The notes beneath the pieces were generated by a model. It saw only the letters and a program-made list of their open reading frames with translations. It did not search any database and had not been told where the DNA came from. Shown in pieces: positions 13,767-15,973 of a stretch of DNA of 34,655 nt. The stretch's first letter is position 1. Each line of letters opens with the position of its first letter. The position numbers were made by a program, and so were the translations under genes. Source of the DNA: an uncultured Acidimicrobiales bacterium (lineage in GTDB: Bacteria; Actinomycetota; Acidimicrobiia; Acidimicrobiales; UBA10347); assembly GCA_938015575.1 (NCBI GenBank), contig CALLPT010000200.1, forward strand, positions 1 through 34,655, in the 5' to 3' direction.

Positions 13767-13904
13767 TTCACCATGCTGCGACGGGCGGTTTTCGGAGCGG
13801 TGATCGCCGCCCTGACCGGCGCGATCCTGCGAATCTTCGGCGGTGACGGGGCTCCACCCCAGCGTGGCGGGTGGCGAGAAATCTCGCCCGACGAACTGGG
13901 CTGA
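13764..13904 (+). CDS. Small hypothetical protein, 46 aa
   Basis: ATG 13764 to TGA 13902-13904. The product has a basic N-terminus, a hydrophobic segment (AVFGAVIAALTGAILRIF) and a polar tail GGDGAPPQRGGWREISPDELG. It looks like a small single-pass or membrane-anchored protein. It ends two bases before the GTG of the dehydrogenase-like gene, which argues for a real, co-translated ORF. A leaderless-type -10 lies at the right distance. The function is not recognised. Confidence 0.6.
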   Translation: MFTMLRRAVFGAVIAALTGAILRIFGGDGAPPQRGGWREISPDELG

Positions 13905-13906
13905 CC

Positions 13907-14938
13907 GTGCGTGTCGCCGTCCTCGGCGCTGGACTCGTCGGACAACGAGCCGCTCGTTACCTTCGTGACCTTGGCAGTGAGGTCACGCTGTATTCACGAG
14001 GGCGCCAGCTTCGCCCGATTGCCGGCATCGAAACCGTCGCCGGGTTCGACCCTGGGCAGCTCAGTACCGACCTCGCGATCTTGGCGACCGAAGCAATGCA
14101 CCAGGTCCAGGTTGCCGAACGGCTGATCCGGCGGGGTATCTCGGTGGTTGCGACGGCGGACCGTCCGCTCGCGGTCCGCACCTTGTGGACACTCGACTCG
14201 CTAGCCCAACAGCACGGTGCCGCGGTGGTTGTCGGCGCTGCGTGTGCGCCCGGCCTCTCCACACTCATGGTTGCCAAGCTGGCCGAAGGGCTTGACGGCG
14301 TTGACACGATCACGACCGCTCGCTTCGGTACCGGAGGCCCGGCCTGTGCTCGCGAGCATCATCGATCCATGGCCGCCGAGGCATGGGAGGTCCAGGACGG
14401 GGCCGGCCGCTGGGCTCGCGGCGGCTCGGGTCGCACGCTCGTGTGGTTCCCGGAACCAGCTGGCCCCCAAGATTGCTATCGAGCCGGGCTCGCCGAGCCG
14501 TTCCTTCTTCAACAGGCATTTCCCGACGTCCGGCGCATTCAATGCCTTCAAGCCGCCACGAGGCGCGATCGTGCCACCGCGCGACTGCCCATGCTGCGCC
14601 CGCCGCATGCTGAAGGTTTGGTCGGTTCTGTGTGGGTTGAGGTTCGGGGCCACACCACGGAACGTGGTGTTGAGCACCGGGTTTTGGCCGCAAGTGCACC
14701 CCAGGCGACCGCTGCGGGTGCCGTTGCGGCGCTGGTTGCTCATGACCTGGTCAACCGAACGTCGACTTTTCAAGGAACGCGTTCGGTGCTTTGGTCTACT
14801 TCTGTCACCCATCTGCTGCAGCGTCTACCCAAGGACATAGGCCTATGGGCTCATACCAGCGCAATCGGGGGACGCCCCCTGTCAGATAGCCCGATTCAGG
14901 CAGCCCGTAAATGGCGGTTTACCCGCGACTTCAGCTGA
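13907..14938 (+). CDS. Saccharopine-dehydrogenase-like NAD(P)-binding protein
   Basis: A 343-aa protein from GTG 13907, two bases after the preceding small ORF. The N-terminus is a Rossmann fold with the GxGxxG motif (VAVLGAGLVGQRAARYL), followed by an acidic/basic strand end (VTLYSRGRQ). The middle (GAACAPGLSTLMVAKLAEGL) resembles the hinge of saccharopine dehydrogenase-type reductases, where a substrate domain is inserted. Such proteins oxidise or reduce amino-acid-like or lipid substrates; the substrate here is unknown. The C-terminus overlaps a long inverted repeat (14876-14944). A longer in-frame start at 13871 would overlap the small ORF and is less likely. Confidence 0.7.
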   Translation: MRVAVLGAGLVGQRAARYLRDLGSEVTLYSRGRQLRPIAGIETVAGFDPGQLSTDLAILATEAMHQVQVAERLIRRGISVVATADRPLAVRTLWTLDSLAQQHGAAVVVGAACAPGLSTLMVAKLAEGLDGVDTITTARFGTGGPACAREHHRSMAAEAWEVQDGAGRWARGGSGRTLVWFPEPAGPQDCYRAGLAEPFLLQQAFPDVRRIQCLQAATRRDRATARLPMLRPPHAEGLVGSVWVEVRGHTTERGVEHRVLAASAPQATAAGAVAALVAHDLVNRTSTFQGTRSVLWSTSVTHLLQRLPKDIGLWAHTSAIGGRPLSDSPIQAARKWRFTRDFS

Positions 14939-14944: not shown

Positions 14945-14985
14945 CCGACTCAATGAATCCCTGCGAAGTATCGGGCACATTTGCC

Positions 14986-15012
14986 TAAAGTCAAGCCGCC
15001 CTTAACCGATTA
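14986..15012 (+). promoter_or_regulatory. FliA/WhiG/SigD-class promoter upstream of the sigma gene
   Basis: TAAA (14986-14989; extended as TAAAGTCAA), 15 bases, then ACCGATTA (15005-15012). The family consensus for sigma-28/SigD/WhiG holoenzymes is TAAA-N15-GCCGATAA. The expected transcript start is near 15019, and a strong stem-loop begins at 15021. The downstream gene encodes a sigma factor of this same class, so autoregulation is the likely meaning. Confidence 0.75.
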
Positions 15013-15020
15013 CTCTCTGT

Positions 15021-15066
15021 GAGTGGCGGCCCGTACGCATGGAGTGACGGGCCGGGGATGCCACTC
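15021..15066 (+). other. 5' stem-loop leader of the sigma-factor mRNA
   Basis: GAGTGGC (15021-15027) pairs with GCCACTC (15060-15066). Directly inside it GGCCCGT (15028-15034) pairs with ACGGGCC (15047-15053), with a 12-nt apical loop and a 6-nt one-sided bulge. The structure starts about where transcription should begin and ends just before the AGAGAGG ribosome-binding site. Confidence 0.65.
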
Positions 15067-15082
15067 AAGAGAGGAACACGGC

Positions 15083-15973
15083 GTGAGCGAAGAACTCGAG
15101 GCCGAGACAACCGAAACAACGTTGTCGCCTGAAGAAATCAATGATCTGATCGAACAGCATGTGCAGTTGGTAAAGCACATCGTGTTCCAGGTCGCCGTCC
15201 ACTTCCCCCGTCACGTGGAGCGTGAAGAGCTCGCACGGGCCGGGGCACTTGGACTGGTCGAAGCCGCTCAGCGCTACAGCCCAGATCGCGGGATTCCGTT
15301 CCAGCGCTTCGCTGCCCGCCGAGTACGGGGCGCCATGCTCGACGCGGTGCGTGCCGCTGACTGGGCACCTCGCTCCGTTCGCCGCCTGTCGCGTCGCTTC
15401 GACGCCATGGAACAGCAGCTTGCCAGCCAGCTCGGCCGCACACCGTCGACGAGCGAGACCGCAGAAGCGCTCGGCATGAATCCGAATGAGCTTTCGAAGC
15501 TCCGTTCGCAGCTCTACCGCTCGGTCGTGCTCGCACTGGAACATGAGGTCGATGGCGAGAACGGCGAGGAACTCAACCTTCTCGACGTGCTGCCGGACCG
15601 TGCCAACCTCGAGCCTGAAGAGCAGCTCGAAGGGCGTGAGCTCTACAGCTACCTCCAGGACGCAATCGCCCTGCTGCCTGAGCGCCACCGCCTGGTGATC
15701 GTGGGCTACTTCCTGGAAGAGCGCACATCGGTCGATCTGGCTCGCTTCCTCGGTGTCACCGAGTCCCGCGTGTCCCAGCTCCGCTCCGATGCTCTCGAGA
15801 TGCTCCGTACCGGCATCTCGTCGCAGTACGAGGACAACGACGACGACGAAGAGACCGGCCGCCGTGCCCAGCGTCGCAAGGCCTACGCCAACGCCATCGG
15901 CGGTGCCAGCGACTGGCGTGAGCGCCTCGACGAGGGTGCCGAGCTCAGCACCCGCATCCGCTCCGTCCTGTAG
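15083..15973 (+). CDS. FliA/WhiG-family RNA polymerase sigma factor
   Basis: A 296-aa alternative sigma factor (sigma-70 group 3). Region 2 runs from about residue 20 to 95 (HVQLVKHIVFQVA, EREELARAGALGLVEAAQRY, FQRFAARRVRGAMLDAVRAADWAPRS), region 3 from about 95 to 160 (LGRTPSTSETAEALGM) and region 4 at about 195-250 (LPERHRLVIVGYFLEERTSVDLARFLGVTESRVSQLRSDAL). The WAPRS/VPRS motif and the VTESRVSQ helix are characteristic of FliA, SigD and WhiG. Start GTG 15083 with AGAGAGGAA upstream. In related bacteria these factors control flagella or sporulation; none of those genes is here. A promoter of the same class precedes the gene. The C-terminal 45 residues are an acidic then basic tail, unusual for the family. 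Confidence 0.9.
   Translation: MSEELEAETTETTLSPEEINDLIEQHVQLVKHIVFQVAVHFPRHVEREELARAGALGLVEAAQRYSPDRGIPFQRFAARRVRGAMLDAVRAADWAPRSVRRLSRRFDAMEQQLASQLGRTPSTSETAEALGMNPNELSKLRSQLYRSVVLALEHEVDGENGEELNLLDVLPDRANLEPEEQLEGRELYSYLQDAIALLPERHRLVIVGYFLEERTSVDLARFLGVTESRVSQLRSDALEMLRTGISSQYEDNDDDEETGRRAQRRKAYANAIGGASDWRERLDEGAELSTRIRSVL

Follow-up and report, generated by a model that had tools for sequence, protein, structure and literature searches.

A FliA-class promoter recurs before a FliA/WhiG-family sigma factor gene across the Acidimicrobiales and probably serves a positive autoregulatory loop

Introduction

Autoregulation of FliA-class sigma factors is, as such, already known from fliA and sigD. 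In Salmonella, a class 3 promoter of fliAZ precedes fliA itself and is read by FliA (sigma-28) (PMC4173784). In Bacillus subtilis, a promoter that depends on SigD allows this sigma factor to boost its own expression, which constitutes a positive feedback (PMC4173784). WhiG of Streptomyces and Rubrobacter, another member of the family, is associated with RsiG, an anti-sigma factor armed by c-di-GMP, and the consensus published for the FliA/WhiG class is TAAA-N15-GCCGATAA (PMC8325347).

Here, we analyse a stretch of 34,655 nucleotides (the window) from an uncultured Acidimicrobiales bacterium, whose best named relatives are MAGs of uncultured Acidimicrobiales and Acidimicrobiaceae. The window covers an origin region with dnaA, dnaN, recF, gyrB and gyrA, and a sigma factor gene follows after gyrA. 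What appears to be new is the sigma subfamily with a probable self-promoter across the order, together with its distinctness from WhiG/RsiG and from flagella and a possible link to a phage.

The sigma factor gene and its neighbourhood

The sigma factor gene (15083..15973, forward strand) begins with a GTG codon, is preceded by the ribosome-binding site AGAGGAA (15070..15076, forward strand) and encodes 296 amino acids. TIGR02479, Pfam, the orthologous loci and a protein tree assign the product to the FliA/WhiG family, in a subfamily that we call type A. The protein scores 195.8 bits with TIGR02479 (FliA_WhiG, cut-off 189.6), and the Pfam sigma regions 2, 3 and 4 are all found. Regions 2 and 4 are conserved, and the promoter-contacting regions align closely with those of FliA and WhiG, for instance in RVRGAMLDAVRAADWAPRSV and ESRVSQL. 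The narrower cut-offs for WhiG and FliA are both missed.

Orthologous loci of the gene were found 80 times; the counts of upstream regions given below use 78 of them. The order gyrA, DUF3566 gene, oxidoreductase-like ORF and sigma gene is widely kept. The third of these genes, a Rossmann-type ORF (13871..14938, forward strand) described from its relatives and a weak Pyr_redox match, adjoins the sigma gene and has a relative in 75 of the 80 loci.

The region between the -10 element and the start codon (15013..15082, forward strand) includes a 5′ leader predicted to fold into a stable hairpin at about 15020-15067 (-31.4 kcal/mol, z -3.6), which is strong in the window species only. An outer stem akin to that of the hairpin was noticed by eye in some members of the genus. 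Across the family, leader RNA structure was not significant (mean z -0.41 versus -0.17 and -0.22 in the controls), and an Rfam search gave one match at chance level.

A third subfamily, apart from WhiG and flagellar FliA

In a tree of 81 proteins, some long branches of which make deep placements uncertain, Streptomyces WhiG falls among a second group of Acidimicrobiales sigma factors, type C (support 88/84), and the window's type A stands apart. The type C proteins are 31-38% identical to the window's sigma factor, which reaches 183.9 with the WhiG equivalog PRK06288 where the cut-off is 343. On the grouping and the missed cut-off taken together, it is not a WhiG orthologue.

The distribution of RsiG leads in the same direction. 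RsiG was recognised by an invariant E...S..RR..Q...D motif plus a second motif, E...S..R, and a search with the corresponding alignment (A1) matched in 38 of 59 relatives. About 35 genomes combine RsiG with a type C sigma factor, and type A does not follow RsiG. No RsiG (E(X)3S(X)2R(X)3Q(X)3D motifs) was detected in the six genomes of the window's genus, which are 60-94% complete; together with the single-contig genome G007, these make up the 7 of 19 type A genomes that are missing RsiG. Because of these missing cases and of the pairing with type C, a c-di-GMP/RsiG switch is unlikely to control the type A sigma factor, and a WhiG/RsiG switch was rejected for it on the RsiG distribution combined with the tree. 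Separately, we observe that the twin-motif RsiG (A1; L201-L226) is widespread in Acidimicrobiales and tracks the WhiG-like type C, its second motif mostly lacking the conserved Q.

Flagellin (PF00669) was found in none of the six genus genomes, and the same search was positive in 14 of 59 relatives and in 4 of 14 control genomes. A flagellar FliA, or flagellar control in the genus, was rejected since no flagellin was found. On these sequence comparisons, we regard type A as a third FliA/WhiG subfamily which is neither a WhiG orthologue nor a flagellar FliA.

The promoter element and its conservation

The box reads CTAAAG-TCAAGCCGCCCTTAA-CCGATTA at 14985-15012. Its -35 element is TAAAG (14986..14990, forward strand; CTAAAG counting the C at 14985) and its -10 element is ACCGATTA (15005..15012, forward strand; YCGAWA in its order-wide form in alignment A2). 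Within the layout, TAAA (14986-14989) is followed by 15 bases, ACCGATTA, 70 bases and the GTG at 15083, and a transcription start at 15018..15020 on the forward strand is predicted from how far starts typically lie from the -10 element. The CTMAAG core is invariant in the 57 sequences of A2, partly by selection as the rows were chosen for having this core.

The first-pass annotation had described such a box ahead of a sigma gene of the FliA/WhiG class; its sequence and coordinates proved exact, and the gene does score above the TIGR02479 cut-off. It had further called the box very close to the consensus. The box is real and its sequence is that of a FliA-class promoter, with two mismatches to TAAA-N15-GCCGATAA; however, when upstream regions of 300 bp are shuffled, about 1% (0.9 of 78) equal it, so that this single instance is modest evidence and the strength of the case comes from conservation. 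The literal pattern occurs once in the window, with 0 expected, and a scan of the 4.2-Mb assembly for CTAAAG-N13-16-NCGAWNA gave a single match.

Against the external consensus with at most two mismatches, 29 of the 78 orthologue upstream regions match; the reverse strand gives only 1 such region, and shuffled sequences give 0.9. A stricter form, CT[AC]AAG[GT][TC]N13-16[CT]CGA[AT], which was refined on these same upstream sequences, is present in 40 of 78 regions, where shuffling predicts 0.04, and has no match on the reverse strand. The loosest form, CTMAAG-N15/16/17-NCGA, lies at most 300 bp upstream of 64 of the 78 orthologues. The remaining 14 are without a box and include L005 of the window's genus, with a degenerate-looking -10 element, and L004, with a partly masked region. 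A spacing of 16 is found in 54 boxes, one of 17 in 16 boxes and one of 15 in 4; the window's genus has 15.

The upstream regions hold further features. Two boxes about 60 bp apart precede the sigma gene in L012, L013, L018, L019, L021, L027, L033, L036 and L061, an arrangement which could represent either tandem promoters or another regulatory arrangement. An AT-rich stretch ahead of the -35 element also recurs among orthologues. The BldD consensus is TNAC-N5-GTNA, and the segment 15010-15022 (TTACTCTCTGTGA), which overlaps the -10 element, fits a BldD-like site; it is kept in L003 and, as read by eye, missing in L006 and L007.

Specificity for the sigma gene and search for a host regulon

Around the orthologues, 832 kb of flanking DNA contain no CT[AC]AAG-N15-17-[CT]CGAT box. 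When 41 sources totalling 551 kb were scanned with a sequence model of the box at E up to 5, the only matches were sigma upstream regions and one phage contig. Among 19 type A genomes, seven (G017, G021, G022, G023, G031, G046 and G056) have the sigma gene's own upstream region as the top genome-wide match of the model; these ranks are partly circular given that several of the matched promoters trained the model, which does not apply to the lack of matches elsewhere.

A genome search for TAAA-N15-CCGAT boxes, put forward earlier as a way to define the regulon, returned 11 matches versus 9 for the reversed pattern and revealed no host regulon. Other pattern searches in the window genome likewise gave counts near the reversed-pattern control, and, among the model matches examined elsewhere, no target gene recurred. 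Neither patterns nor the sequence model thus found a conserved host regulon beyond the sigma factor's own gene, as far as predicted sites can indicate.

Isolated candidates were observed. In the window genome, a second good box, CTAAAGTTCCCCTCAAGGCGTCCGAT (L196 9215-9892; L002), precedes a response-regulator gene (G000:C247), its start lying 34 bases away. In G018, a TadE-like gene follows one box of a divergent pair (L327 1500-2180) at a distance of about 50 bp. In G056, the candidate is a gene after an ftsX-like ORF, named by eye.

A positive autoregulatory loop and its alternatives

We consider it highly probable that the sigma gene is transcribed from this box by RNA polymerase carrying the gene's own product, which would close a direct loop of positive autoregulation. 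Holoenzyme containing the type A sigma factor would bind the box before the type A gene and transcription would start near 15018-15020, so that more sigma factor would be made; the sign of the loop is presumed positive, and a priming promoter would be needed to set it going. This reading draws on the match between promoter and sigma class, on their co-inheritance and on the absence of further close members of the family from the window genome. As the box recurs at this gene order-wide and almost nowhere else nearby, the sigma factor is most likely self-activating. The window genome holds three matches to the sigma factor, the second and third being weaker than ~1e-10 and below the listed range; with no other close FliA/WhiG-class member there, positive autoregulation is the simplest reading. 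The feedback loop proposed in the first-pass annotation is consequently supported: the box tracks the sigma gene across the order, is missing before the paralogues and has no other close candidate reader in the genome.

In genomes with several FliA/WhiG-class sigma factors, another one could read the box. It might then be a genuine FliA-class promoter read mainly by a WhiG-like type C or a type B sigma factor, in a cascade and not in a self-loop. Many members of the order do have several such sigma factors, promoter specificity is common to the family (PMC8325347) and, the window assembly being 80% complete, a paralogue could have been missed. Nevertheless, the window's genus keeps the box without type B or C among the matches listed, and the box accompanies type A genes only: CT[AC]AA[AG]-N14-18-CGA[AT] was found before none of the 15 type B and none of the 20 type C genes. 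We therefore hold a cascade to be improbable.

Less probable still is that the element is the site of another DNA-binding protein and resembles a sigma-28 promoter in appearance only. The paired boxes of some orthologues could be tandem operators, and the recurring AT-rich stretch would suit such a site as well; however, both halves and their spacing agree with the promoter known for precisely this class of sigma factor, and the element keeps one orientation, some 50-190 bp upstream of the gene.

That the box matches by chance, in intergenic DNA that contains AT, might have been suggested by the two mismatches and the frequency among shuffled regions; this is very improbable, being contradicted by an order-wide conservation that exceeds shuffles, reverse strand, paralogues and flanking DNA and that we judge decisive against chance on the sequences compared. 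The self-activating promoter hence remains our preferred reading.

A phage contig with the same boxes

The phage contig matched by the model, G004:C7 (115.7 kb; L192-L195, L197-L199), was binned with a genome of the same genus. It encodes a tape measure protein, a portal protein, a head-tail adaptor and a dNMP kinase, and carries 12 tRNA genes. It holds 19 CT[AC]AAG-N15-17-[CT]CGAT boxes versus 0.62 in shuffles, mostly of the form CTAAAGGTTCCCC...YCGATAATATATATA, with the spacing of 15 bases that is specific to the genus and an AT run after the box; some are without an obvious same-strand ORF just downstream. Neither Pfam region 4 nor the FliA/WhiG-family model detected a sigma gene on the contig. 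The 19 boxes and the lack of a detectable sigma gene suggest that the phage uses the host type A sigma factor; binning and promoter resemblance are the grounds for taking the window's genus as its putative host. More tentatively, and with the odds against it in our estimate, the host regulon of type A may be nearly empty and consist chiefly of the sigma gene itself, at least one large tailed phage having adopted its promoter code such that phage expression depends on a self-amplifying host sigma factor.

Searches of IMG/VR returned no relatives of this phage by its portal protein and no strict phage-promoter patterns, and the first 50 kb of the Actinomycetia phage DSL-LC01 contain no box. Four IMG/VR contigs (L351, L354, L378 and L360) carry 3-6 sigma-28-like boxes each (CTAAAG...CCGATA or TCGATA) in 11-14 kb, as raw counts on putative phage contigs.

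Comparison with known systems

The analysis defines an order-wide, origin-linked sigma subfamily in the Acidimicrobiales, a group with little genetics, and the promoter code of this subfamily can be read from sequence alone. It also sets type A apart from WhiG/RsiG, with which annotation at the family level lumps it together. If the phage reading is true, a phage would depend on an alternative host sigma factor of the flagellar class.

Type A and Salmonella FliA have in common their sigma family, their promoter class and a self-read promoter, which is predicted here. In contrast, Salmonella FliA serves a flagellar regulon with the anti-sigma factor FlgM and its loop is reported to act mainly via FliZ, whereas the window's genus is without flagellin and the type A gene without flagellar linkage. 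With Bacillus subtilis SigD, type A would share positive self-feedback. However, sigD is part of a large flagellar operon that contains its promoter, while the type A gene lies close to gyrA and has its promoter immediately upstream. WhiG belongs to the same family, and its consensus, TAAA / GCCGATAA (PMC8325347), would be shared by type A, but it groups with the Acidimicrobiales type C, which co-occurs with RsiG as type A does not.
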